Part shown: positions 5,954-55,377 of the stretch, one piece after another | Numbering within the stretch: position 1 is the first letter of the stretch | Layout of the letters: each line of letters starts with the position of its first letter | Notes under the pieces: model-generated | The model's database searches: none | Seen by the model: only the letters and a program-made list of their open reading frames with translations | Told to the model about the DNA's origin: nothing | Position numbers and translations under genes: made by a program | Assembly: GCA_022241785.1 (NCBI GenBank) | Contig: JAKOMP010000010.1 | Coordinates: 87 to 64,086 of the forward strand | Direction of reading: 5' to 3' | Source of the DNA: Cyanocohniella sp. LLY | GTDB lineage: Bacteria > Cyanobacteriota > Cyanobacteriia > Cyanobacteriales > Nostocaceae | DNA length: 64,000 nucleotides

Positions 5954-6541
5954 CTACGTTAACTTCCACTCACACAATTGAGATGGAGGTGTCATCCGAG
6001 GACTGTTATATTGATGAAATCCCTCAATATTGAGTACAGCACTACGATATAAAATCATCTCAGTAGCATCTTCACCTTGATTAAAAGTAGGCATGATATT
6101 TCCTTGATTGAGTATTAAGCGCCCCTCTGAATCCCACGGGAATGCAGATTTGGGTATTTGATGTTGCTGATTGTTATCCCACAATATTTCTAAAGCTTCA
6201 CCTGCAATCTTATTTCTCTCTACAGTTCCTCGCAGACAGATAAAATGGCTGGAATGGGGATAGCCATAATATCCATCAACGTAATTTCCAGTTTTCGTGA
6301 AATTTAGACACACTCCCGCCCCATCTCGCCAATCTTGAGGATCTGTTTGACTACAAAATTGGTAGTTACCATCTGCTAAGTTGGCAATATTGGTGGAATT
6401 GGCTGCAAACCAAAAGTGGCGCTGGGTAAATAATGTAATTTGTTCACCTTTAACCTGACTGTAGGAAATTAGGCACCCTACAAGTGATGCTGTAAAAACT
6501 GCGCCTATCTGCAAAAGATTGTTTCTACTTCTTTGCATCAT
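5954..6541 (-). CDS. exported protein of unknown function
   Basis: This 195-aa protein has an N-terminal signal peptide or lipoprotein-like leader: basic MMQRSRNN, a hydrophobic core, then SLVGCLISYS. The mature part has four Cys (QFCSQ, GVCLN, FICLR, QLCEW), which would form disulfides outside the cytoplasm. A GGAGGTGA ribosome-binding site lies just before the ATG. It is preceded 43 bp upstream by a 37-aa membrane peptide with an equally strong ribosome-binding site, so the two probably form a small operon. No enzymatic motif is visible. Confidence 0.7.
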   Translation of the reverse strand: MMQRSRNNLLQIGAVFTASLVGCLISYSQVKGEQITLFTQRHFWFAANSTNIANLADGNYQFCSQTDPQDWRDGAGVCLNFTKTGNYVDGYYGYPHSSHFICLRGTVERNKIAGEALEILWDNNQQHQIPKSAFPWDSEGRLILNQGNIMPTFNQGEDATEMILYRSAVLNIEGFHQYNSPRMTPPSQLCEWKLT

Positions 6542-6584
6542 CTCACCTCCAAATATGAGGGAGTCTGGCGTTTTGAGGACATTT

Positions 6585-6698
6585 CTAAACTGCTGGAGTA
6601 GCAGAAACTACCAAAAATACTAACAGTACCAAGATTAAGATGGTGAGTTTGACTATCAGGTAGTTGGCAGGTTCAGACAATGGAAAATTGTAAATCAT
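6585..6698 (-). CDS. 37-aa single-pass membrane peptide
   Basis: An ATG at 6698, preceded by TGGAGGTG at good spacing, opens a 37-codon frame ending in TAG at 6585. The first 13 residues are polar (MIYNFPLSEPANY), the next 20 or so are almost purely Leu/Ile/Val, and the end is SATPAV. It therefore has one membrane segment, with size and layout like the small subunits of photosystems, cytochrome b6f or NDH-1, but it matches none I know by sequence. It probably forms an operon with the exported protein downstream. Confidence 0.6.
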   Translation of the reverse strand: MIYNFPLSEPANYLIVKLTILILVLLVFLVVSATPAV

Positions 6699-6770
6699 TT
6701 TACACCTCCATTTGCAGACTTATCTACCTTTATTGTCGCGCAAATTTACCTTGTGTGTTGGGGCTAGGGG

Positions 6771-7451
6771 CTAAGATTGCCTTTGATATTCAATCCGTAG
6801 TTGTTGAATGTCAACCCGTTCAGGTTCATAAAATAGAATCCGGCTAACTTCGTCTAAACCCAATTCTGTGAACTGGGTGAGTTCAGAATTAGACAACGGC
6901 CAGGGAGGCCCTTCAGGTACTAATTCGGTTTCTCGAAAACGAGTAATGACTAATAAGGTGCCTTGGGCTGCAACTACAGAAGCAACGGATGCAATGACAG
7001 TTGAGCGTATACTCAAGGGTAAAGCCTGGATATTTCGAGATTCTATAACTAAGTCAAAAGCTTGATGCCATTGTGAGGGTAGGGCCAATAAATCTGCGAC
7101 TACGTAGTTCACAGAAGAATCAGGAAATCTTTGCTGACACCAATTAACCGCTGTAGGGGAAATATCAAAGGCGGTGACTTGGAATCCTTTGTTTGCTAAA
7201 GCTTCTGCATCATCTCCCAAACCACACCCAATTACTAGGGCGGAATGTCCTTCACCTTGGGGGTTATGAGTAGTCAACCAATCTTGTAAATAAGGATGTG
7301 GGGTTAACTTGGCCCAAGGAATTTGTGTAACATCACCATGAGATTCGCTGTACAACACATCAAACCATGCTGTTGGGTTCGATTGTTGGATGGCTTGAGT
7401 GGCTAACTGTTTTACCCTTTGCTGTAAGGTTTCTGGTTGTTTTTCAAACAT
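6771..7451 (-). CDS. class I SAM-dependent methyltransferase
   Basis: Starting at the ATG at 7451 (MFEKQPETLQQ) the protein has 226 aa; the frame is open to 7565, but the upstream part has low coding character and would run into the neighbouring gene. The SAM-binding motif I is VIGCGLGDDAEAL, followed by an acidic residue after the second strand (VTAFDIS) and the VVADLL segment. The C-terminal part resembles the thiopurine/tellurite-resistance methyltransferase group. Substrate is unknown. It follows a small Rieske ferredoxin gene by 94 bp on the same strand, which hints at a shared transcript. Confidence 0.8.
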   Translation of the reverse strand: MFEKQPETLQQRVKQLATQAIQQSNPTAWFDVLYSESHGDVTQIPWAKLTPHPYLQDWLTTHNPQGEGHSALVIGCGLGDDAEALANKGFQVTAFDISPTAVNWCQQRFPDSSVNYVVADLLALPSQWHQAFDLVIESRNIQALPLSIRSTVIASVASVVAAQGTLLVITRFRETELVPEGPPWPLSNSELTQFTELGLDEVSRILFYEPERVDIQQLRIEYQRQS

Positions 7452-7545
7452 GTGAGGAGTAGGAAGTGAGGGACAAAAAGACAAGCGATCGCCTGAAGTT
7501 GGAGTTGAGTTTTCCCAGGCGATCGCTATACTAATACAAAGGCTA

Positions 7546-7905
7546 TTATCCTTCTTGCAAATCAATCCAAATACTGCCTTCTTCTACGCGTGTGGGAAAC
7601 ACCGGCAGTGTCTTTGGTTGTGAAACCATTGCCAGTACTTTACCTACACCGGGTGGCCAAGGACACCAAGTTTGTACCTCTCCAGTATTTAGGTCAAATG
7701 CACTGCGATGTATAGGACAAACAATGGCCCCAGTTTCGGTAATTTTCCCATTTTTCATGGGCATTTTTAAGTGTGGGCAAGTGTTATCTACGGCATAAAG
7801 CTGATTTTCGTGGTTCAAAAGTAGAATTTTGCGTGTACCAACTTTCACCACTTGTCGCCCACCAGGGGCTAGGGCATCTGCTGCAAGAACTTTAGTCCAG
7901 CTCAT
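7546..7905 (-). CDS. small Rieske [2Fe-2S] protein, NirD-like ferredoxin
   Basis: With the ATG at 7905, preceded by AAAAGGAGAAAAG, the product is 119 aa; the open frame extends to 7983. It is a single Rieske domain with Cys43-x-His45 (CPHLKM) and Cys63-x2-His66 (CPIHRS). Such stand-alone domains carry electrons to oxygenases or form the NirD-type small subunit of nitrite reductase. No large subunit is nearby. It would work in the cytoplasm as an electron carrier; the partner is not identifiable from this window. Confidence 0.85.
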   Translation of the reverse strand: MSWTKVLAADALAPGGRQVVKVGTRKILLLNHENQLYAVDNTCPHLKMPMKNGKITETGAIVCPIHRSAFDLNTGEVQTWCPWPPGVGKVLAMVSQPKTLPVFPTRVEEGSIWIDLQEG

Positions 7906-8339
7906 TTGGTTCTTTTCTCCTTTTAGATCTGTTTTTAGTTTCTCGCAATTGTGACCAGTGCTTTCACAATATTTTGGTAGCAACGCGATTTTGTGAAACT
8001 TTGATCAAAGTCTCCCCTCTCCTTGATACGACTTGCGTGTACACACATCTCTTTACTGGGTGCAAAATTTGGGTTTATTCCCATAAATCCCCCTAAACCC
8101 CTTCGGGGATGCGCCTTCAGCGTAGAACAAGGAGGACGTTAAGAAAATTTCCTTCCTTTTTCAAGCATCTAAACCTTGTCTACTTTGAGAACTGTAGTTT
8201 GTAGTCAAGATTATGAGATTGCTTCCTGGCGTCGCCATGACAAAAACTCCACTTTTTATGATGGACGAGGTTTAATACACTATTTTAGCTGTATCAGTCC
8301 AGTAGATAGAGCGTAAAGCACCATTTTATTAATTACGAA
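7906..8339. other. intergenic region with a possible short gene relic
   Basis: No firm gene is seen. Positions 8176-8316 on the plus strand hold a 46-codon TTG-started frame with protein-like text (SQDYEIASWRRHDKN) that may be the remnant of a gene. CCCCTAAACCCCTTCGGGGA near 8090-8110 can fold as a small hairpin. The segment around 8110 (GCGCCTTCAGCGTAGAAC) resembles dispersed repeats seen elsewhere in the window. TTACGAATTACGAATTA at the end is a motif repeated near 26,100-26,220. Confidence 0.4.
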
Positions 8340-11300
8340 TTACGAATTATTATTACCTGCAATTATGAATGCTGCCCAATAGTAAGGATGACTATAAAGC
8401 TTTTTATCTGGAATCATTTTACTACTTCTATATAGATATGTTGCTAAATAAGCCCGAATTTTTAATTCATCAGGATGCAAGTTATTTAGTAAATTTTCAT
8501 ACCAAATTGTTAGTTCCATCGCAGTTAGTTCTTTAAGCCAGGTTGTCGCTTCTGCTAAAGCTGTAACTGGTGATTTATTTTCCTGTAGTCGTCGATAAAA
8601 TTCGATCATTACTAAGGCACTAGCAGATGATTCTACAGCCCAGAGGGTACTGACTACGTGAGGAATTTTCCCTAAGAGAAAAGCATTAACTAAACTGACA
8701 TATTCGGTAGTTAAATTTTGATTACTAAAAGTTGCAGTTTCACAAGCTGAAAGAGTAACTAGGTTGTAACTATTAAGAGCTTTTTGGCAAATTTCTTCTA
8801 AAGTGATTGTATCTTCACCTGCCAATTCTAAAGCTGATTTTTGCGGTTCATGATAATTATTTGTGACGCGCCCTGTAAAATGAAAGATATTGTAATTATC
8901 AACTAAGGCGGTTTCTACCTCGTTTTTGGTGGCTTGTGATTCCTGGATGCGTCGGGAATTATTAAACATCTGACTAATAATTTCCGATTCCAGTTTTGCA
9001 TATTTGACTGGGGGATAATTTGTATTACTAGGATACTCTACACTGAGTAACATTTGCTGTGACCATTGCCATTGATTTTCAGCTTTTACTGATAATCCTA
9101 CTTGCACACTAGGCAAATAAGTAATGGTGAAATTCGAGACTTCTGCCAACGATGGCGTAGGCAGGTGAAACAGATTATGGAGAGGCAATGTTTGCAAGTC
9201 TCGGTGGGGAATTAATATCAGTTGGGAAATGCCTTCAAGTTCCTGTTTAATGGTGGTAATTTCCAGAATGTTGTGCAATTGCAACAACCTTGGTTCCATA
9301 TTTACTCGCCAGGAATGATTGCTCTTGCTGTGTGTATCTTGGGCTTGGCTGGAATATTCCTGGTAAACTTGATGCCATTCTGTTAACCAATCTTCAAATT
9401 CGATTAAGCGTCTGACTGCTTCGGGTAGAGGTAATTCGGAGATTGTGCCGACATCTTGTATGGGTGTAAATAATAAGATGGGTGATGGTGCTTGGTCTTT
9501 AATGATAAAAGTGTGTAAGGCTACCGGGCTAATATGCCAGTAAATGATTGCTGTGTGGGGATTGAGTAGCTGTTGTACTGAACTATAATATGGCGAGTCA
9601 ATTTCTTCTTGCCAATGGGATAGTAGCCAGGTTAAACAAGCATTTTTGCCTTGTTCTGCCATTTCCCAGGCTTCTACCAAGTCACCGCAATCTACAGCTA
9701 AATCAACTGCTAATTGCCCAATACCAGCAAATTTGAGAGCTAGTTGTTTTTTACTTTCTTCAGAACGTGTTGATTCGTTGAGCATGTGTGCCAGTAAATT
9801 TGTGGCACGTTGTTGTAATTCTTGTGCTGGCTCTGTTTCTCTTATACCCACCAGTGCTTTAATCAGATATTGCAAAACTTCTAGATGCAACAGGGGAAAA
9901 TCTTCTGTTGTCAGGGTTAACAACGCCTGATGATATTCATCTACTGCTTGACACCAATAATAGCGGGATGTGGGATTTTGCAGCCCTTGTTCGTAATGTG
10001 TATTGCCCATTGCCAGATGCAGTCTACCCCATCCTTCTGGGTGGGTATCTGGGCGAATATGCTGCAATCCTTCGTTGTAGCTGGCTAGTTTGCCTTCATA
10101 GCCACCTTGCTGTAAGGCAGAGTTAAATTCAGTGATGCTAGTTGATACATTTAACGAGGTATGGGAACTGAGATGTCCGACAGCGGTTCCTCGACCAATC
10201 CAAGCTTCCCAGTAGTCGGCTTTGATTTGCAAGGCGTTGTCATAGGCCACGATCGCCTCGGCAAATTGTGCTAAATGAAACAGGGCTACTGCCTGATTGT
10301 ACCAAGCTAAATGAAAGTCGGGTTTGATGGCTATGGCTTTGTCATAGGAGGCGATCGCCTCTTCTCGTCTTCCTAAGTTGTCTAAGGCTATACCCCGGTT
10401 GTACCAGGCCAAATAAAAGTCTGGTTGATTTGATAGGGCTTGATCCCAGGAGGCGATCGCTTCTACCCACTGTCCTAAATTAAACAGCACTACGCCCCGG
10501 TCAATCCAAACTTCGTAGAAATCTGGTTGAATTTCGATAGCTTTGTCATAGGAGGCGATGGCTTCTGGGTATTGTCCATCTACACCCAAGGCTATACCTC
10601 GGTAATACCAGTTTTCCGAGTCTTCTGGTTCCAGAACTAATGCTTGGTCATAACTGGCAATTGCTTCTTTGATTTGCCCTAATTTGAGTAACGCCAAAGC
10701 TTTGCTAGACCAGGCTTCTGGGTTCTTGGGTTGAATTTCTGTAGCGCGATTAAAAGCGGCGATGGCGGCTTCAAACTGTCCTAATTCACCCAATGTTCCA
10801 CCCCGGTTATACCAGGCTTTGTAATAATCGGGTTTGATGACTATGGCTTGGTCGTAAGCGGCGATGGCTTCGGTAAAATTTTCTAAGTGAAATAAATTTA
10901 AGCCCTTATTAAACCAGTATTCATGGGCCTGGGGATTAATGGCGATGGCTTTATCATAAGCCGCGATCGCTCCTGTTAAATCACCCGCTTTCGCTTGCTG
11001 GAGTCCTTGATAAAACCACGTCTGCGCCTGGCTTGATTCCTCGGTGGTGATAACTACAGGTTGACTGGTGGGAACTGCTAAATTAGCCGCCAACTGTTGC
11101 ACTAAATTGGCACTTTGATCCAACCTGACCAACAACTCATCTAAAGTATATGCCACATTTGGCTCTAAATTTGCCCAAGTTTGCTCCCAATTGCCTCGGG
11201 AAGAAACTATGACTGTTTCGATAGTTGGTTTGGTGATATCAGCTTTTTCCCCTCGGTACTCCAATGACAGTTCACCCAAGTTGCCAATCACGTCTTCTTC

Positions 11301-11990
11301 GGCCGGGTTTAAAAGGGGTATTTCTGGGGGAATTTCCACTTCAGCTTCTGCATACTCCCAGATTACTTGTTCGACATTTTCAGTCGCTGTTTCCTCAGGA
11401 GTAGCTATTTCCCGTATGGCTTCAGGTATGGCTTCAGGTATGGCGTAGGTAAATTCTGGTTCGTCATATTCCCATAACAATTCGCCTAAGTCACGGATCA
11501 AATCTTGTCCTGGGGTGTTTATTTCACCGTCAACAGTGACGAAATCTGTAATTGCAAATGCTGGCTCTTCATTTTGTTCGTCTTCTTCGCCTAAGTTACC
11601 TGTTAACACCCGGAAACCAATTTCATAGGCAAGTTCACCAACTTTGCCAATTCTCAGTTCACCTAGCTGCACCATCTGGGTTGCTAGCTCATGATTGGGT
11701 GTCCGTGATAACAGCATTTTTTCGCCAAATATCAGGAGCCAATCGATCCAACGCTCAGTACTGATGCGATCTTCCATGCGTTGCAGATACTGGAGTACCC
11801 ATTGTTGCCCTCGGCCTTGTTGCACGCCTGCTAGCATCTGGGTAAACAAAACTTCCAGATCTGCATTTGTCAGATCTGGGGGTGTTTCTGCCACCGTTTC
11901 CACCCTTGCAGCCTTTAATGAACGACTCTGCTTATTACCAACGGGGTGGTTTGAAAACTTGTTAAGCCACTGCAATAGCTGCGTGAGCAT
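8340..11990 (-). CDS. TPR-repeat protein with a C-terminal CHAT (caspase-like) domain lacking the catalytic His
   Basis: This 1216-aa protein has an N-terminal helical part (1-130), an acidic Glu/Pro-rich linker (about 130-250), nine 34-residue TPRs of the W-Y-N-R-G type (about 322-640), a helical middle part, and a CHAT domain (about 870-1216). CHAT proteases have a His in a HFxxHG motif and a Cys in LSAC. Here Cys1083 is kept in TLSACETA, but the His motif reads HFTGRV, with Arg1041 at the His position. The domain may therefore be a catalytically dead scaffold. TPR-CHAT proteins are common in filamentous cyanobacteria and are linked to cell-death or defence signalling; no clear partner gene is adjacent. 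Confidence 0.85.
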   Translation of the reverse strand: MLTQLLQWLNKFSNHPVGNKQSRSLKAARVETVAETPPDLTNADLEVLFTQMLAGVQQGRGQQWVLQYLQRMEDRISTERWIDWLLIFGEKMLLSRTPNHELATQMVQLGELRIGKVGELAYEIGFRVLTGNLGEEDEQNEEPAFAITDFVTVDGEINTPGQDLIRDLGELLWEYDEPEFTYAIPEAIPEAIREIATPEETATENVEQVIWEYAEAEVEIPPEIPLLNPAEEDVIGNLGELSLEYRGEKADITKPTIETVIVSSRGNWEQTWANLEPNVAYTLDELLVRLDQSANLVQQLAANLAVPTSQPVVITTEESSQAQTWFYQGLQQAKAGDLTGAIAAYDKAIAINPQAHEYWFNKGLNLFHLENFTEAIAAYDQAIVIKPDYYKAWYNRGGTLGELGQFEAAIAAFNRATEIQPKNPEAWSSKALALLKLGQIKEAIASYDQALVLEPEDSENWYYRGIALGVDGQYPEAIASYDKAIEIQPDFYEVWIDRGVVLFNLGQWVEAIASWDQALSNQPDFYLAWYNRGIALDNLGRREEAIASYDKAIAIKPDFHLAWYNQAVALFHLAQFAEAIVAYDNALQIKADYWEAWIGRGTAVGHLSSHTSLNVSTSITEFNSALQQGGYEGKLASYNEGLQHIRPDTHPEGWGRLHLAMGNTHYEQGLQNPTSRYYWCQAVDEYHQALLTLTTEDFPLLHLEVLQYLIKALVGIRETEPAQELQQRATNLLAHMLNESTRSEESKKQLALKFAGIGQLAVDLAVDCGDLVEAWEMAEQGKNACLTWLLSHWQEEIDSPYYSSVQQLLNPHTAIIYWHISPVALHTFIIKDQAPSPILLFTPIQDVGTISELPLPEAVRRLIEFEDWLTEWHQVYQEYSSQAQDTHSKSNHSWRVNMEPRLLQLHNILEITTIKQELEGISQLILIPHRDLQTLPLHNLFHLPTPSLAEVSNFTITYLPSVQVGLSVKAENQWQWSQQMLLSVEYPSNTNYPPVKYAKLESEIISQMFNNSRRIQESQATKNEVETALVDNYNIFHFTGRVTNNYHEPQKSALELAGEDTITLEEICQKALNSYNLVTLSACETATFSNQNLTTEYVSLVNAFLLGKIPHVVSTLWAVESSASALVMIEFYRRLQENKSPVTALAEATTWLKELTAMELTIWYENLLNNLHPDELKIRAYLATYLYRSSKMIPDKKLYSHPYYWAAFIIAGNNNS

Positions 11991-12289
11991 CTGCCATACT
12001 CTTGGATTTTGTTTCTCCTAGATTGTAGCCATCCTTGTGTTAAAGAAATCACTAATTACGTGAAAATAACTGTAATTAAACAGCTTTTCAGCCATCTGGT
12101 TATAAAAAATATACAAAACTTTGTTATTTGGGGGCTGGGGAGATCAAAATGATGGGGAACAGATGATAAGACTCGTGTGTACACCGTAGCCAACGCACTG
12201 GCTCTTTTTGACCAAAAAATAAGGTTTAAAGCCTCGCCCCTTGTGGGTGGTTTTTTCCCCTCTGCCCCCTGCCCCCTGCTTTTTCACTT

Positions 12290-12407
12290 CCAAGGCACTA
12301 GTAGTTCACCAAGCAAACTTTGCGGAGTTTGTAGTGAGGGCTTTAGCCCTCAAGTCAAGGACTAAAGTCCTTACTACTAACTTATTTACCAAGCAAAGTT
12401 GCCTTGG
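12290..12407. repeat. MITE-like palindromic element
   Basis: The ends are inverted repeats (CCAAGGCAC at 12290 against GCCTTGG at 12401), and the core has GTAGTGAGGGCTTTAGCCCT followed by AGGACTAAAGTCCTTACTAC. A related core occurs near 21,180. The wider spacer 11991-12575 otherwise holds only G/C-rich low-complexity stretches and no convincing gene. Confidence 0.65.
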
Positions 12408-12602
12408 CACAATACTAGTACAGCACGGCGTAAATAGGCATACCATTTGAAATCGTCAAACAGCCTGTTTGATAAGCTTTTTGACTTTTGACTTTTGACT
12501 TCCGCGCAGCGGTACTAGCCTCTCTCTAGTGTCCAAAGCTAAAATGTAAATATTTCCCAGCCGTGAGATTAATTTTTGCGGCAGTTCAATCAAATCTCGC
12601 GT

Positions 12603-12803
12603 GTGAATTACCCAACCAACTTACAGGTATATGCGCCACCGTTTACGTCCCTGAGAGAACGTGACTGGAAAGCTATGACAGAACTATTCGACAGGGAAGA
12701 CAGTGATGACATTGAAGCTGACATCAGGAGCAATTTGCTATGGCTGACTCCTGAGCCGTGTTGGGAAGATGATCCGTTTGATTTCTTACGTGAATACCTT
12801 TAG
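12603..12803 (+). CDS. small acidic protein of unknown function
   Basis: The frame opens at a TTG at 12576 with a GTG at 12603 and an in-frame ATG at 12675. I take the GTG as the most likely start (66 aa). The protein is acidic in its second half (DREDSDDIEADI and a C-terminal DDPFDFLREYL) with three Trp. Composition is like a real soluble protein, not a chance frame. No ribosome-binding site decides the start and no family is recognised. Confidence 0.45.
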   Translation: MNYPTNLQVYAPPFTSLRERDWKAMTELFDREDSDDIEADIRSNLLWLTPEPCWEDDPFDFLREYL

Positions 12804-12923
12804 ATTGTCAGAGTGCGATCGCATAGCGGCTCCTTTAAAGCATCGCCTAACTCTCTCCATGTAACCTGACTCAGGACTTACGTAACCAACCACGTATTTT
12901 ACGCGATGTGCGACTTATTCTTG

Positions 12924-12953
12924 AAACCCCGCTTCCATTCCTCTCCCCTGCGA
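12924..12953. repeat. dispersed repeat copy (inverted copy near 136-163)
   Basis: AAACCCCGCTTCCATTCCTC at 12926 onward occurs in reverse orientation near 143-163 (GAGGAATGGAAGCGGGGTTT), with partly matching flanks. It is a short dispersed intergenic repeat. Confidence 0.6.
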
Positions 12954-12986
12954 GGAGTAAGATTAATTAATACATAATATTGACTA

Positions 12987-13682
12987 ATGAGACCTTATCA
13001 CCAAATCCCTATATTAGAATGCGGTGAATTGCTGGTGCAGATTCCTTTGGAATTGTTTGCAGTGGAATCTCCCCATCCTTATGAAAAACTTGGTGCGCCT
13101 TATGGAGAACATTCGCCTTATTATTTGCGCGCAAGTGTGGTGAAAAATTTAATTCAAGCCCAAAATTATCTACAAGAAATTTATCCTGGTTGGTATATCC
13201 AAATTTTTGATGCTTATCGTCCCGTAGCTGTACAACAGTTCATGGTAGATTACAGCTTTGCCCAAGCGTTGCAACAGCAGGGATTAACTGAAGCTGAGTT
13301 ATCACCAAATCAACGCCAAGAAATTTGGCAATCAGTTTATGAAATTTGGGCTGTACCGAGTTTGGATGAAAAAACTCCCCCTCCTCACAGTACAGGTGCG
13401 GCTGTAGATGTGACGCTGGTTGATGATACAGGGGAAATAGTAGATATGGGATCGCCTATTGATGAATTATCAGAGCGATCGCATCCCAATTACTATGCTC
13501 ATAGTGACCACCCAGAAGCCCAAAAGTATCACAGCAATCGGCAAATATTAAACGAAGTCATGTTAAAAGCCGGATTTCAGCGCAATCCCAGAGAATGGTG
13601 GCATTTTTCCTATGGTGATCAAATGTGGGCTTGGTTAAATCAAGATGGTTCAACTGCGCGTTATGGGCGAATTGTTAATTAG
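12987..13682 (+). CDS. D-alanyl-D-alanine dipeptidase, VanX/DdpX-like (peptidase M15D)
   Basis: This 231-aa protein has the zinc-peptidase motifs of the VanX family: FDAYRP with its catalytic Arg, HSTGAAVDVTL for the first Zn ligands (His and Asp), and EWWHFSYG for the catalytic Glu and third Zn ligand His. It would hydrolyse D-Ala-D-Ala or related dipeptides, either recycling peptidoglycan fragments or using D-amino acids. No vanA/vanH partner is nearby, so a role in glycopeptide resistance is not supported. No clear signal peptide is seen, so it is probably cytoplasmic. Confidence 0.9.
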   Translation: MRPYHQIPILECGELLVQIPLELFAVESPHPYEKLGAPYGEHSPYYLRASVVKNLIQAQNYLQEIYPGWYIQIFDAYRPVAVQQFMVDYSFAQALQQQGLTEAELSPNQRQEIWQSVYEIWAVPSLDEKTPPPHSTGAAVDVTLVDDTGEIVDMGSPIDELSERSHPNYYAHSDHPEAQKYHSNRQILNEVMLKAGFQRNPREWWHFSYGDQMWAWLNQDGSTARYGRIVN

Positions 13683-13776
13683 GAACTGGGGACTAAAGAG
13701 TAAATAACCAACTTAGACATTTTTTGTTATTCCTAGTAGTATTGTTGCTATGAGCCAGCCGATCAAGAGGTAGCAG

Positions 13777-14034
13777 ATGAATGTTTCTTTGACCCCAGAA
13801 CTGGAAAAGTGGGTGCAATCCAAAGTTGAAAGCGGTATGTATACTTCAGCTAGTGAAGTGATCCGTGAAAGTCTAAGGTTACTCAAGGAGCAGGATGCTC
13901 TTAAAGCAATACGCCTTGCCGAGTTGCGCCGGGAGATACAGCAAGGTATTGATAGCGGAAAATCTACACCTCTGAACATGGATGAAATTATTGAATTGGC
14001 AAAACAACAACGGCAGCAGAAAGAATCCGCATAA
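13777..14034 (+). CDS. ParD-type antitoxin (ribbon-helix-helix)
   Basis: This 85-aa protein begins with the RHH DNA-binding fold of the ParD/CopG group: MNVSLTPELEKWVQSKVESG, then YTSASEVIRESLRLL. The C-terminal part is a charged helix that would wrap around the toxin. Its stop overlaps the start of the next gene by one base (TAATG), the usual coupling of toxin-antitoxin pairs. It would neutralise the toxin and repress its own promoter. Confidence 0.9.
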   Translation: MNVSLTPELEKWVQSKVESGMYTSASEVIRESLRLLKEQDALKAIRLAELRREIQQGIDSGKSTPLNMDEIIELAKQQRQQKESA

Positions 14035-14336
14035 TGGCGAAAATTCTCAAAAAACCATTAGCGCAAGCTGATTTATTGGATATTTGGAATTTTATTGCTA
14101 ACGATAGCTTTGAAAAAGCAGATCAGTTGTTACAAAAAATAGACAGCCAACTCAAAATGCTGGCATCAAACCCAGGTATAGGAAGAAAGCGTGATTCCTT
14201 AGCGCCAAATCTACGGAGTTTTCCGGTAGGGAATTATCTAATTTTCTACCGTCCTATAAATCAAGGTATTGAAGTTATTCGTGTTCTACATGGGGCAAGA
14301 GATATTCAAAGCCTTTTTGAAGAAAATGATGAGTAA
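14034..14336 (+). CDS. ParE-type toxin (RelE/ParE superfamily)
   Basis: This 100-aa protein follows the ParE pattern: an N-terminal helix (KPLAQADLLDIWNFIAN), a central NPGIGRKRDSLAPNLRSFPV stretch, then LIFYRP and IEVIRVLHGARDI strands. ParE toxins poison DNA gyrase; other members cleave mRNA on the ribosome. The gene is coupled to the ParD-type antitoxin. It is a chromosomal type II module with no plasmid genes nearby. Confidence 0.9.
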   Translation: MAKILKKPLAQADLLDIWNFIANDSFEKADQLLQKIDSQLKMLASNPGIGRKRDSLAPNLRSFPVGNYLIFYRPINQGIEVIRVLHGARDIQSLFEENDE

Positions 14337-14384
14337 GTTGTTATTTAGTAGATTTATATTTCTGCCAAAACAGTTACTTTATCA

Positions 14385-14534
14385 TTGCTAGTTGGGAAAG
14401 AAATCGGTTTTGAACGTCCTTACAGTTGGCTTAGTGTATTTGAAGAAGATTGTCTGCAAGAGTTCATCCTGGATATACTGCTCAAAGTAAGAAAATTCAG
14501 AAAAAATTTCTTACCAATAGTTATCATGCTATGA
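14385..14534 (+). pseudogene. possible gene fragment after the toxin gene
   Basis: A 49-codon frame starting with TTG reads GKEIGFERPYSWLSVFEED and looks protein-like. It lacks a good start and ribosome-binding site and runs into the end of the opposite gene. I take it as a probable gene remnant; the family is unknown. Confidence 0.2.
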
Positions 14535-15920
14535 CGAAATTTGCCCAAGCATCATCTTTAGATAATAGGGAACAGTGTTTTCAGTCTCCCAGCGATGAGC
14601 CGATTCCAGATGCTGAATAATTTCGTAACTGACGATAGCGTGATACAAAGCAGCCAAAGGCTGTGTTGTTTGAAATATAGAAGTTAGTTGTTTCATTGGC
14701 AAGTACACTGTCCAAGGCTCCAAATAAGCATTGCGTAGACGCGCTTGCACATCCACTACATTAGGAAGTTCTTGTGCAATATCAAACAGAAAGAATCCTG
14801 CATCGAAAAACGGATGAGAAACTGCACTATCAGACCAATCGAAATAAATATTGCTTTGTTGCGCGTCAATCACATTTTGACAATAAAAATCACCATGTAC
14901 TAAGGTTTGAGGTACACCACAAGTTTCCAAAACTTCACACCATGACAGCAGTTGAGGTATGAGAGTGCGTAACTCCTCCAAGTCTGAGTGTTCGAGAAAT
15001 GGATCATTCTGGGGGAGCAGTAACGCAGCATCATCTGCAAATAACGGTTCTATTCTTTGAGCAAGCTGATTGATTCGTCGGTCAGGAAAACCAACATCTA
15101 GTAACCGATCAACCTGATTCGCCATCTGAACTTGAATTTCAGCATATCGCCGTAGTGCTATCTCCCATCGAGAAACATCAACCGCTTTCCCCAAATGCTG
15201 ACCCTCAAACTCTCTCATCAACATCCATTGTTGTTCTGTATTTACAGCGATTAGTTTAGGCAAGTAATCGGGATAAAGTTGAGACAGAAAATCAGTGAAG
15301 GTGGCTTCTGTGCCAAAAATCCCATACGCAGCCTTCAAATAAAGTGTTCCATCTGTTGTTCTGACACGCAACAAACAAGAGCGAGTTTGAGATTTAACTT
15401 GCTCAATCGGAGCAGTTGCACTCAAACTTAAAGTCTCAACAAGTTGCCGATTAATCCAAATTGACGCTCTATCAAACCAGCCCAATTTTGCCCAAGGTAC
15501 GCGCATTTCTGGAATAGAATTACTTTGAATTTCAGCAAACCAGGAATTAAGAATCTGATAAAGCTTGGGAATTACAATTAAGCGGTCTAACTCATTTGAC
15601 TTCGCCCAATGAGCATGTGTAGGTAGTATCCAATCCAAAGAATGATTTTCCATTGCATACACCCTGCACCCAGTTTTTGTATCTGAATAGTAGTCCTCAT
15701 AAAAACAGCGCAGAGTCGTAACATTTAATCCAAGTTGATCCTTCATGGTTTGATTGATGTGACTTACCATGCCAAAATGATGCTCATAAGGCACAAAACT
15801 TGGTAATGACCAGCCATCTTCTCCAGCCAGCAGCAACACTTGTAACTCAGTGGGATGGGGAATGATGCAGTAGTAGTCAAAATGGACATTCGGGTAGTGA
15901 ACAACAGCTACTTGGCTCAT
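14529..15920 (-). CDS. phosphotransferase (APH fold) with an N-terminal Nudix-like region
   Basis: The ATG at 15920 follows AGAGGAG and gives 463 aa; the frame is open to 16010. The C-terminal half has the aminoglycoside phosphotransferase/choline-kinase signature LVHGDFYCQNVI (Brenner motif) and IYFDWSDSA (metal-binding Asp). The N-terminal 130 residues look like a Nudix-type beta-sheet fold, but I cannot find the Nudix box, so this half is probably non-catalytic or only binds a ligand. The substrate is unknown: it may phosphorylate a small alcohol or sugar. It stands alone on the minus strand. Confidence 0.75.
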   Translation of the reverse strand: MSQVAVVHYPNVHFDYYCIIPHPTELQVLLLAGEDGWSLPSFVPYEHHFGMVSHINQTMKDQLGLNVTTLRCFYEDYYSDTKTGCRVYAMENHSLDWILPTHAHWAKSNELDRLIVIPKLYQILNSWFAEIQSNSIPEMRVPWAKLGWFDRASIWINRQLVETLSLSATAPIEQVKSQTRSCLLRVRTTDGTLYLKAAYGIFGTEATFTDFLSQLYPDYLPKLIAVNTEQQWMLMREFEGQHLGKAVDVSRWEIALRRYAEIQVQMANQVDRLLDVGFPDRRINQLAQRIEPLFADDAALLLPQNDPFLEHSDLEELRTLIPQLLSWCEVLETCGVPQTLVHGDFYCQNVIDAQQSNIYFDWSDSAVSHPFFDAGFFLFDIAQELPNVVDVQARLRNAYLEPWTVYLPMKQLTSIFQTTQPLAALYHAIVSYEIIQHLESAHRWETENTVPYYLKMMLGQISS

Positions 15921-21343: not shown

Positions 21344-22579
21344 TTAAAGCTTAATTCCTCCGGGTGCAGCAAGTGTGCAATTAACCGAGAATGTCGCTTT
21401 GTTCGATACTTCCTGATAAGTTTTGCCATCAGTACCCTTCCACTGCACCTGCATCACACCCCAGCCCTCGTTCTTTGAGCCTGGTTTGCCGTCGAATTGG
21501 CGGCTTACTGTAGATGTCACAGTTTGTCCCTTCTTAGCACTCCAGTTAAAGGTGTTAGATTTTTGTCCGTTCTCATAGGTCAAAAAGCCAGTACCCGCTA
21601 CGGTATGCTTCATTTGGATTGTTGCATCTAGCTTCACTGTGGTAGGACAAGCTGAAGTCACTACTTTTTGAGTAGGTGTGAGCGACAACTTCTGAACCGA
21701 TGAACCATCAATTTGGTCTGGACGATCTACCGTAACGATGTAATTGCTACCTTGGCTAGTAATCTTAGTAACTTTCCAATCTTTCAGGAGACTGCTGATA
21801 CCTGGCGAATTTCTTACAGCATCTGCTACCGCTTGCTTCATCTTAGGGTCATTGAAAGATTTAGTTACTTGACTTTCGATGGTTGGGGTCAGCTGTGTTT
21901 TGATTTTGCCTTCAATCCAGCCGCAGATACCCTTAAATGCCTGACACAGTTTGCTAGCGATTTTCAGGTCAGTTTTAAAAGTAGTGCTAGGAGAATCATA
22001 GGAAATCGAGCCATTATAGGCGACAGGATTCAGCGAAATTGAAAGAATTGAGTTGTCAAGGTGAATATCGCGTTCCATATCAAGGGAACACTCGTCCCAG
22101 TTACCAGCTAGTTTGCGGACACACTTTGCTTTGATCTCTTCACCTTGACTTTCAAAATTGGCATTTACATTGATTCGGCTACCATTGACAGTGGCTTGAA
22201 TAGAGCTTGTATTTAAATCGTTGACGTAATATTTGAGATGTCGAATATTGTTAATTTCGTACTTATATTCAGGAATGGGAAGTGGCACCTTAGAGCCAGT
22301 GGGCAATAGTATATAACTCGCGTCCTTGTGCCAGGTTGTGCCGTTTTTCGTCCCGAAATTATGGAGATGGATTTTAGTTGAACTGAGGGCCCCATTAAAA
22401 GCCGTAGCAACAGCTGCTTTGGGAACGGTTATATTAACGGTTTCTGCTTGTGCTACTGAAGCGAGTAAAGGAATATGCCCAAACATTATGGCGGCGCTAG
22501 CAGCTACCATCAAAGACTTACGAGTTATTTGAATGTACCCTTGAGACAAATGTAATACGTTTAGAGTTTCAGTTTTCAT
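21344..22579 (-). CDS. exported protein of unknown function
   Basis: The ATG at 22579 follows an AGAGG motif and gives 411 aa; the frame is open to 22693. There is a long signal peptide (basic TRKSLMVAASAA, hydrophobic core, then SVAQAETVN with a likely AQA-E cut). The mature protein is Thr/Ser/Val-rich, beta-structured, with six Cys (KCVRK, DECSL, KLCQAF, KGICGW, SACPT, VNCTL). The central part (residues about 140-260) alternates short strands and an amphipathic helix. I cannot name a family. The C-terminal 120 residues look like an Ig-like or beta-sandwich domain. Confidence 0.7.
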   Translation of the reverse strand: MKTETLNVLHLSQGYIQITRKSLMVAASAAIMFGHIPLLASVAQAETVNITVPKAAVATAFNGALSSTKIHLHNFGTKNGTTWHKDASYILLPTGSKVPLPIPEYKYEINNIRHLKYYVNDLNTSSIQATVNGSRINVNANFESQGEEIKAKCVRKLAGNWDECSLDMERDIHLDNSILSISLNPVAYNGSISYDSPSTTFKTDLKIASKLCQAFKGICGWIEGKIKTQLTPTIESQVTKSFNDPKMKQAVADAVRNSPGISSLLKDWKVTKITSQGSNYIVTVDRPDQIDGSSVQKLSLTPTQKVVTSACPTTVKLDATIQMKHTVAGTGFLTYENGQKSNTFNWSAKKGQTVTSTVSRQFDGKPGSKNEGWGVMQVQWKGTDGKTYQEVSNKATFSVNCTLAAPGGIKL

Positions 22580-22839
22580 GAGAGTATTCCTCTGAATAAA
22601 TTTACATCTTTGAGTAGATGCTTGTAAGTCAATAGCCAAAAAATAAAGGTCTAACGGATGTCCTTCATTTCCCGGGCTTATTGCTATATACATTGGCTCT
22701 CATGAAAATATGCAGTCGTATCCTTCTAAACTAGTAAAAGGTTGAGCCTGCACATATTTACGGCATATGAAACAAAATCTTTCCAGTGAGTTTCACATGC
22801 ATATAAATACAGCATATTCGGTGTCGATGAGGTACATAA

Positions 22840-53058: not shown

Positions 53059-55377
53059 CTATTTTTCTTCAATTGCCAGTTGAGTGAATTTAACAGTCAT
53101 ATTTCGATCATCACCTGGTGCAAAGGTAAATTTCCCTTTATTCCAATCTTTGTATCTAAAAACTACTGTATTCCATCCTGAAATAGCTTTAAACTCAATC
53201 CTACGTTGAATATTAATATTTTTGCTAAGATTAACTATTTTTTCTAAATTTACTCCATTAGCTTCTATCACTACATTTTGATCATCAATTGGATTTATAA
53301 AGCTGAAAACTAACGATATTGATTTAGATGCTGGCAAATTAAATTTGAGTAGAGTTTCTGGACCTAAACCCCATCGCCATACGCTTCCTTGGGATGAGTT
53401 TTCAATTGTGCTTAGTCCATTTATATTGAAACCATAAGGTAATTGAAATTTCAGCAAATCAGCTTCAGCGTAATTTATAAAAGTTTCTAATTTCAGGTAA
53501 CTACCCAAGTTTAAATTAACTTGATCTCTTAATTCAGAAGATTTTGGTATAAATTTTACTAAACCTGCGCCCGGCACTTTTGTCTCCACAGTTGGCGTAC
53601 CGAAGCGAGTATAAAAATTTTCAACACAATCTTGAGGTAAAAAATCTACATAAAGGTTAATCCCGGCAAAATCATTAAATTTATAAAAATCTGTAAAAAA
53701 AGCCCATTCTTCTGAATTAAAACATCGTTTTTGGTTACTTGCTTTAAAAATATCCTGCTCATTAGGAACAAACATTTGATCCCAACCAGCCTCAATATAT
53801 GGCTTTAATTGGGAAGGATGTAAACGTCCAAAGTACTGCCCCATAACTTTTTTATGATGAAACCGTCGTAAAGCAAAAACGCTACCATTTCTTGCATAAT
53901 ATGGACAAAGATTTTGTAAAGCACCGACTCCATTACCTCCTATTACACAAAATGGCCAATCTAAAACTGCCTCTCCTGGTTGCTCTTTAACATAATTCAT
54001 ATACTGAAAAAAGCTGTTGTCTAAGGAGTATAAAGGTTGATGGTTGAGCTTGAGTGAATATGCAGTATAAATTTCAGTACAAGCCAAAAATACCAAAAGT
54101 GCTGATACTAGCTGCCTAGTATGTAAACGTAAACTATTTAAACTAATATTTAGAGCAAAAATGCTAAGTATGATCGGGTAAAGAACAGTAAAACGACCTT
54201 GGACTCGACTGAAGGCAAACCAGGGAAATATCTTTAATATAGGAAAGTGAATCGGATGGTAAAAAATACAAATGAAGAATATTGTTAGTAGAGGTATGAA
54301 AATACCTATTTGTTTGCGTTTTTGCCATAAACCAACAGATGCGATGATCAGCAAAAGCCACCCTGGGCTACCAGCACCTAAACCTTCTGGTGAATCGTTA
54401 AATAATTGTTCAACATTAAATTTCCCTGGGTGAAAAAACGGCAAAAAAGGAATTAGTATTCTAAGAGGATTAGCCCACCAAACTCCACTAGGAATTCCGG
54501 TAAAGTCGAAGCTTTTCGCTTCTCTTGATATTTGGATAACTAAGGGGAAAATAATAAAGCTGGCAGTCAAAAATAGACCTAATAAAGCTAAACATATACG
54601 GGGATAGGAATAAAATTCACTTTTATATTTTCTTAATGTAATTTTGAAGCAGGTTAATAAACTCAGTTTTTTATTTCTAAAATATCTGTAACTAAGCAAA
54701 AGTAAAGTAAAAATAGTAGAAATTGTAAATGATGTTAAGGCAGAACCAGCTATGTATCCCAATTCTTGTCCTAGAGATAGAATAAGTAAACACATTCTGA
54801 GTAAAATTAACCGTAGATATACATAGTGCCCCAAGGTTACTTTTTTTAGTATGATAAAGTCAGCGATAAAACTGAGAGCAGTCCAATGAAATATTGAATA
54901 GCTGAGATGCTCTGGATATTTGTGAATTGCGTAGAAACTAAAAAATGAAATTAGGAATCCAGCCCCACTAGCACGGGCAAAACTATAATCTTTGAAAAGT
55001 AGAAGGAAGCTTCCGATACCTGTAACTAAAACACTTAAAAGATAGTATATTTGTATCCAGGGACCAATTCCAAAAATGGAGTAAAAGATCGCGTAAAAAA
55101 TATCTCTTTCAATTGACCAAGGCTGAAAGACACCATTTGTTCCATAAGGATAAAACGCTTGATTATTTATCAGGTTCAAATTAGGAAATGGTAATAAACT
55201 AAGATTTTTAGAAAAATAAAACCCGGTATATTCCCAATATTCTGTATCTCCAAATCCAACTAAAGGATGTGAAAAATCTTTAATTATTAAAAAACTAAAA
55301 GCAAAAGAAATACATATTAAAAGATATGAAGCATATTGTATTATCCATTTAGCTTTAATGCTAGACAAATTATGCAT
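53059..55377 (-). CDS. large polytopic membrane protein, GT-C-like or YfhO-like
   Basis: This 772-aa protein has about 10-12 membrane helices in the first 450 residues, then an outside-facing C-terminal region of about 320 residues (VLDWPFCVIGGNGVGALQN and a beta-rich end). The layout recalls GT-C glycosyltransferases and YfhO-type proteins, which use polyprenyl-linked sugars. A GT-C acidic motif is not clearly seen. It lies 12 bp after the methyltransferase gene in the polysaccharide operon, so a sugar-transfer or polymer-modifying role is plausible. Confidence 0.65.
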   Translation of the reverse strand: MHNLSSIKAKWIIQYASYLLICISFAFSFLIIKDFSHPLVGFGDTEYWEYTGFYFSKNLSLLPFPNLNLINNQAFYPYGTNGVFQPWSIERDIFYAIFYSIFGIGPWIQIYYLLSVLVTGIGSFLLLFKDYSFARASGAGFLISFFSFYAIHKYPEHLSYSIFHWTALSFIADFIILKKVTLGHYVYLRLILLRMCLLILSLGQELGYIAGSALTSFTISTIFTLLLLSYRYFRNKKLSLLTCFKITLRKYKSEFYSYPRICLALLGLFLTASFIIFPLVIQISREAKSFDFTGIPSGVWWANPLRILIPFLPFFHPGKFNVEQLFNDSPEGLGAGSPGWLLLIIASVGLWQKRKQIGIFIPLLTIFFICIFYHPIHFPILKIFPWFAFSRVQGRFTVLYPIILSIFALNISLNSLRLHTRQLVSALLVFLACTEIYTAYSLKLNHQPLYSLDNSFFQYMNYVKEQPGEAVLDWPFCVIGGNGVGALQNLCPYYARNGSVFALRRFHHKKVMGQYFGRLHPSQLKPYIEAGWDQMFVPNEQDIFKASNQKRCFNSEEWAFFTDFYKFNDFAGINLYVDFLPQDCVENFYTRFGTPTVETKVPGAGLVKFIPKSSELRDQVNLNLGSYLKLETFINYAEADLLKFQLPYGFNINGLSTIENSSQGSVWRWGLGPETLLKFNLPASKSISLVFSFINPIDDQNVVIEANGVNLEKIVNLSKNINIQRRIEFKAISGWNTVVFRYKDWNKGKFTFAPGDDRNMTVKFTQLAIEEK

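Follow-up and report, generated by a model that had tools for sequence, protein, structure and literature searches.

The window, a 64,000-nucleotide stretch of the Cyanocohniella sp. LLY genome, encodes a TPR-CHAT protein whose layout is given in Table 1. TPR families identified by Pfam search cover the middle of the 1216-residue open reading frame. The CHAT family, PF12770, spans residues 903 to 1213 (E 4e-38; 131.9 bits against a cut-off of 24; profile positions 5 to 289 of 289), a match to the whole-domain profile, and no caspase p20 family is among the Pfam matches listed for the protein. Two short motifs are of particular concern: HFTGRV (residues 1037 to 1042, within IFHFTGRVTNN); and LSACET (within VTLSACETAT), which contains Cys1083. 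Elsewhere, the window holds a ParE-like toxin reading frame (PF05016; 14034 to 14336) and two reading frames of 449 and 772 amino acids (21347 to 22693 and 53062 to 55377) with no Pfam match.

Table 1. Features of the TPR-CHAT gene, in window coordinates.
Feature	Coordinates	Strand	Basis
TPR-CHAT protein (P0001), 1216 aa	8340..11990	minus	ATG-started open reading frame
N-terminal domain, residues 1-143, no Pfam match	11562..11990	minus	44% match to C221 ORF over residues 2-143
TPR superhelix, about residues 317-595 (approximate ends)	10206..11042	minus	Pfam TPR families and AlphaFold helices
CHAT domain, residues 903-1216	8343..9284	minus	PF12770 match and predicted separase/Csx29-like fold
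Arg1041, codon CGC, at catalytic-His position	8868..8870	minus	Sequence and profile alignment
Val1042 at position of HG-motif Gly	8865..8867	minus	Sequence; Gly lost in 101/102 clade rows
Cys1083, codon TGT, nucleophile position retained	8742..8744	minus	Sequence and profile alignment

The family profile aligns with seven distinct CHAT or TPR-CHAT sequences in the PDB. In this alignment, Arg1041 falls in the column of the His in CHGE, and Cys1083 in that of the Cys in GACET; a hand count along the profile alignment identifies this His and Cys as H585 and C627 of the Craspase protease. These two residues are named as the catalytic dyad of the Craspase TPR-CHAT protease in the available part of PMC9729208. 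Where an active CHAT domain has its catalytic His followed by Gly, the window protein has Arg1041-Val1042; where an active domain has its catalytic Cys, the window protein has Cys1083. The preliminary description, which reported a TPR-CHAT protein with Arg in place of the catalytic His and with Cys1083 kept, was therefore correct in its coordinates (codon CGC, 8870 to 8868) and its residues; the Pfam match bears out the family, and the alignment to PDB chains confirms the replacement.

Because the search for relatives used the window protein as query, sampling is denser in the clade described here than in its outgroup. Twenty-one matches were dropped before alignment: 13 that repeated a kept stretch or were the window itself; 5 matches to paralogues from the same genome; and 3 short second matches (from L115, L124, and L129, each of which stays in through another match). 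The alignment comprised 127 rows, to which 18 further relatives were added. One relative (L215) was left out as the same gene as L111/L019, and another (L212), whose motif region hardly differs from those of L172 and L128, was counted. Trees were built without the motif columns, by a quick method that gave long-branch warnings, and on them the window's group forms a single clade of 117 rows, with the catalytic half present in 102. Of the 71 genomes sampled from the window's family, 66 contribute rows to the clade, and no other coded family contributes any; a 67th genome (G368) carries a further copy, with motifs HFNGYV and LAAHET, which is not on the tree. The nearest named relative found is LEGE 11386, a Nostocales strain (row L067), with 77% identity over window residues 761 to 1216.

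Among the 102 rows with a catalytic half, the His is lost in 59 and the Cys in 21 (16 substituted, 5 gapped); one or the other is lost in 63. Position 1041 is occupied by His (43 rows), Tyr (26), Gln (13), Arg (12), Asn (3), Ser (2), and Asp, Glu, or Val (1 each). The Gly at position 1042 is gone from 101 rows, and the full HG...C combination is found in none. Outside the clade, both His and Cys are kept in 25 of 28 rows (23 with HGC, 1 with HSC, and 1 with HAC), the intact and lost sets having been labelled by eye after the motifs were seen. The fewest changes that the tree requires are 19 between His and not-His, 11 between Cys and not-Cys, and 6 for the Gly. Loss of the protease site is thus recurrent across the clade, and is not a single-genome oddity. 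(Three CHAT relatives from another family, f33, also have lost one or both dyad residues: L206, with H and S; L198, with K and A; and L210, with K and C. They lie outside the clade and were kept apart as "other".)

Because both His and Cys are retained in 39 of the 102 rows, some clade members may still cut. It might then be supposed that the clade is mixed: the members with both residues, many of them from Nostoc, would be proteases, and only scattered lineages, including that of the window protein, would be inactive. This is improbable as an account of the whole. The HG glycine is missing from all 39 but present in 23 of the 25 intact relatives, and close Nostoc relatives alternate His, Arg, Tyr, Asn, and Gln at position 1041, the pattern to be expected of a residue that has ceased to matter.

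The window's genome (6.78 Mb; the window lies on G000:C215) contains 20 CHAT matches. In the other 19, read by eye, the Cys is kept throughout and the His is kept in all 18 that are readable; two of the 19 contain in-frame stops. The window protein is therefore an exception among the CHAT domains of its own genome. (One CHAT match with several in-frame stops, at G000:C106:14558-15496, is a possible broken paralogue.)

Some orthologues have dispensed with the catalytic half altogether. Twelve, from eleven g5 genomes and one g10 genome, end at a place that aligns with window residue 1018. Their tails are alike, and eleven share a D.L.Y ending. Within 2.5 kb downstream of these twelve, no CHAT remnant was detected (no tblastn match better than E 1.2), which was the ground for rejecting a split gene whose CHAT half would form a separate, second open reading frame. 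The part of the CHAT N half that remains in g5 is still under purifying selection (dN/dS 0.20 to 0.35; five pairs). Three further orthologues differ in form: one from another genus (L146) has an in-frame stop and keeps a downstream CHAT remnant, and two from g5 (L149 and L150) are even shorter than those ending at residue 1018.

An AlphaFold model of residues 310 to 1216, made with 35 relatives, has pLDDT 88.1 and pTM 0.76. VIA-align matched this model to the TPR-CHAT structure 7zoq (Z 25.7; 4.3 Å over 411) and to the separase structure 5fby (Z 24.4; 3.5 Å over 328 residues), and many of the top rows cover the TPR part alone. The predicted caspase/separase-like fold is thus kept, which says nothing on whether the protein works.

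The preliminary description allowed that the protein could use another His. Intact relatives conserve residues H929, H938, H1037, and H1201 as well, and the active Craspase CHAT domain has a Thr opposite H1037. No near-invariant His column confined to the clade was found among the clade alignment columns; the closest candidate, column 892 (His in 95 of 100 clade rows), is mixed outside the clade and lies beyond the Pfam match. On sequence comparison, then, an alternative catalytic His appears unsupported, and was rejected. Retention of Cys1083 in the window protein and in 81 of the 102 clade rows would suit a protein that still cuts, through a substitute His or through a Cys that needs no His general base. 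Such a protease is very unlikely: the Cys is missing from the remaining 21 rows; the twelve shortened orthologues lack the half that bears it; and the CHAT match offers no near-invariant, clade-specific His to replace the one lost.

The surroundings of the gene point to a possible partner. At 108 of 116 clade loci (window included), the upstream flank carries a co-oriented gene whose product is a small protein; the N-terminal part of this protein and the N-terminal domain of the TPR-CHAT protein are homologous. The small gene (median open frame, 235 codons) lies at most 400 bases from the TPR-CHAT frame at 96 of the 116, and dnaX lies on the opposite strand at 80 of the 116; all three counts are lower bounds, because flanks are short in some loci. 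The small protein has no Pfam match (best E 0.11). Across the order, 333 of 388 genomes contain a match to it; many of these matches fall on the domain as part of a longer frame. In one small genome of genus g6 (L218, G142), the pair formed by dnaX and the N-terminal-domain gene is present, with no TPR-CHAT gene within 8 kb. Several intact relatives outside the family start, as judged by eye, with the same N-terminal domain (for example, G115:C61), so the arrangement of N-terminal domain, TPR, and CHAT is probably the older architecture.

In the window's genome, the small gene (L195, G000:C221:71283-71990) adjoins dnaX (identified on this copy by NF011510, 897 bits) on contig C221. The window TPR-CHAT gene lies away from dnaX, flanked by a Rieske/methyltransferase gene pair and an M15 peptidase gene. 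Since the small gene stays with dnaX and the TPR-CHAT gene sits between other neighbours, the latter probably moved and was kept. The link to the partner is accordingly indirect in this genome, the window copy having left the conserved locus. A mobile element was considered as the cause of the move and rejected: a repeat scan of 6500 to 14600 gave TPR repeats and short two-copy matches, and nothing explanatory.

How is the CHAT domain maintained? In pairwise comparisons, dN/dS comes to 0.164 in the linker (53 pairs), 0.208 in the CHAT N half (51 pairs), and 0.191 in the CHAT catalytic half (45 pairs). Linker and CHAT are thus under purifying selection. Within the clade, the His1041 column has undergone 26 amino-acid changes, tied for second among the 89 columns that are invariant in 11 intact rows; the median over 315 columns is 13. 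No change at all has occurred at E1096, W1117, F1131, Y1132, W1151, Y1164, or W1205. Codon 1041 shows 16 changes at position 1 and 9 at position 2, against a mean of 18 and a median of 14 at fourfold sites (nine columns only), so position 1 runs like silent sites and position 2 somewhat slower. The His1041 column is fast but does not stand alone: at codon positions 1 and 2, 34 of 203 columns show as many changes or more. The CHAT scaffold is maintained, and the active site is not.

Plain pseudogene decay, of which the three broken or much shorter orthologues (L146, L149, and L150) might be taken as signs, is highly improbable for the window gene: its 1216-codon frame is open; dN/dS of 0.16 to 0.21 over linker and CHAT rejects a neutral pseudogene; and the gene is intact even away from the dnaX locus. 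Least credible is a sequencing error, raised in the preliminary description, or a private mutation at codon 1041: the His codon CAC is one base from CGC, but a base-calling error is unlikely because Arg occurs in 12 of the 102 clade rows (window included), at several places on the tree, and a residue other than His or Arg in 47 more.

Most probably, the protein is a pseudo-protease that has been conserved and serves as a TPR scaffold, and we consider this reading likely to be right. It is favoured because the window protein and most of its sampled close relatives have lost part of the catalytic site. The suggestion in the preliminary description of a pseudo-protease, one that may bind or regulate, thus gains support from four sides: clade-wide recurrent loss; the kept predicted fold; purifying selection; and a lineage without the catalytic half. 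We infer the loss of proteolysis, the adaptor role, and the partner.

This suggests a stepwise model. The ancestor would have been a protease with the N-terminal domain, TPR, and CHAT arrangement and an intact His-Cys dyad. Within the window's cyanobacterial family, one line would no longer have been selected for proteolysis. The HG glycine, gone in nearly all members, was probably the first loss, although the order of losses is deduced; later the His and Cys would have drifted away repeatedly, and one lineage would have deleted the catalytic half of the CHAT domain. Selection would have retained the N-terminal domain, the TPR superhelix, the linker, and the CHAT scaffold. The most likely role is that of an adaptor or regulator that binds protein partners; the likeliest of these is the small protein that also has this N-terminal domain and whose gene lies upstream in most of the relatives sampled. 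Both the partner and the process served by the scaffold are guesses.

A bolder version of the model is doubtful. Here, a family-wide CHAT branch would have gone from protease to scaffold with all stages visible, and would form a non-proteolytic complex with the dnaX-linked small protein through the N-terminal domain, perhaps with a part in controlling chromosomes or the cell cycle, like separase, a distant relative. The visible stages would run from outgroups with HG...C intact, through loss of the Gly and loss of His or Cys, to deletion of the catalytic half.

The closest structural comparisons are with active enzymes. Csx29, the TPR-CHAT protein of Craspase (type III-E CRISPR), has in common with the window protein the order of TPR and CHAT, the predicted fold, and the aligned H585 and C627 columns. 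However, the Craspase protein has an intact dyad and becomes active within an RNA-guided complex, and the window protein scores 41.2 bits with the Csx29 model NF041237, against a curated cut-off of 300. The predicted fold also resembles the separase protease domain (ctSPD, 5fby), although separase is an active protease, with dyad H2003/C2029 in human. (Both enzymes are described thus in the available part of PMC9729208.)

HetF of Anabaena is also a cyanobacterial CHAT protein. Mutation of its active site is reported to abolish function in the accessible portion of PMC8406250, whereas the site of the window protein has changed naturally.

No earlier description of a CHAT pseudo-protease was found in the open-access literature searched. 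For a catalytically degenerate CHAT branch, the nearest known idea is that of the pseudo-orthocaspases, as presented in the sections available of PMC6426788. These proteins likewise have a caspase fold without the His-Cys dyad and are cyanobacterial, and some carry TPRs in other bacteria. They differ in being p20 (C14B) proteins, whereas the window protein has a CHAT domain. Moreover, the cyanobacterial pseudo-orthocaspase clades are named YS and YN, whereas the window clade has mostly changed its His and kept its Cys.

CHAT domains are read as proteases, to judge from the family description. Annotation by domain misleads here, because a branch placed in 66 of the family's 71 sampled genomes has largely lost the dyad. 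Moreover, the graded series within this branch constitutes a set of natural mutants for separating the scaffold from the protease functions of TPR-CHAT proteins.
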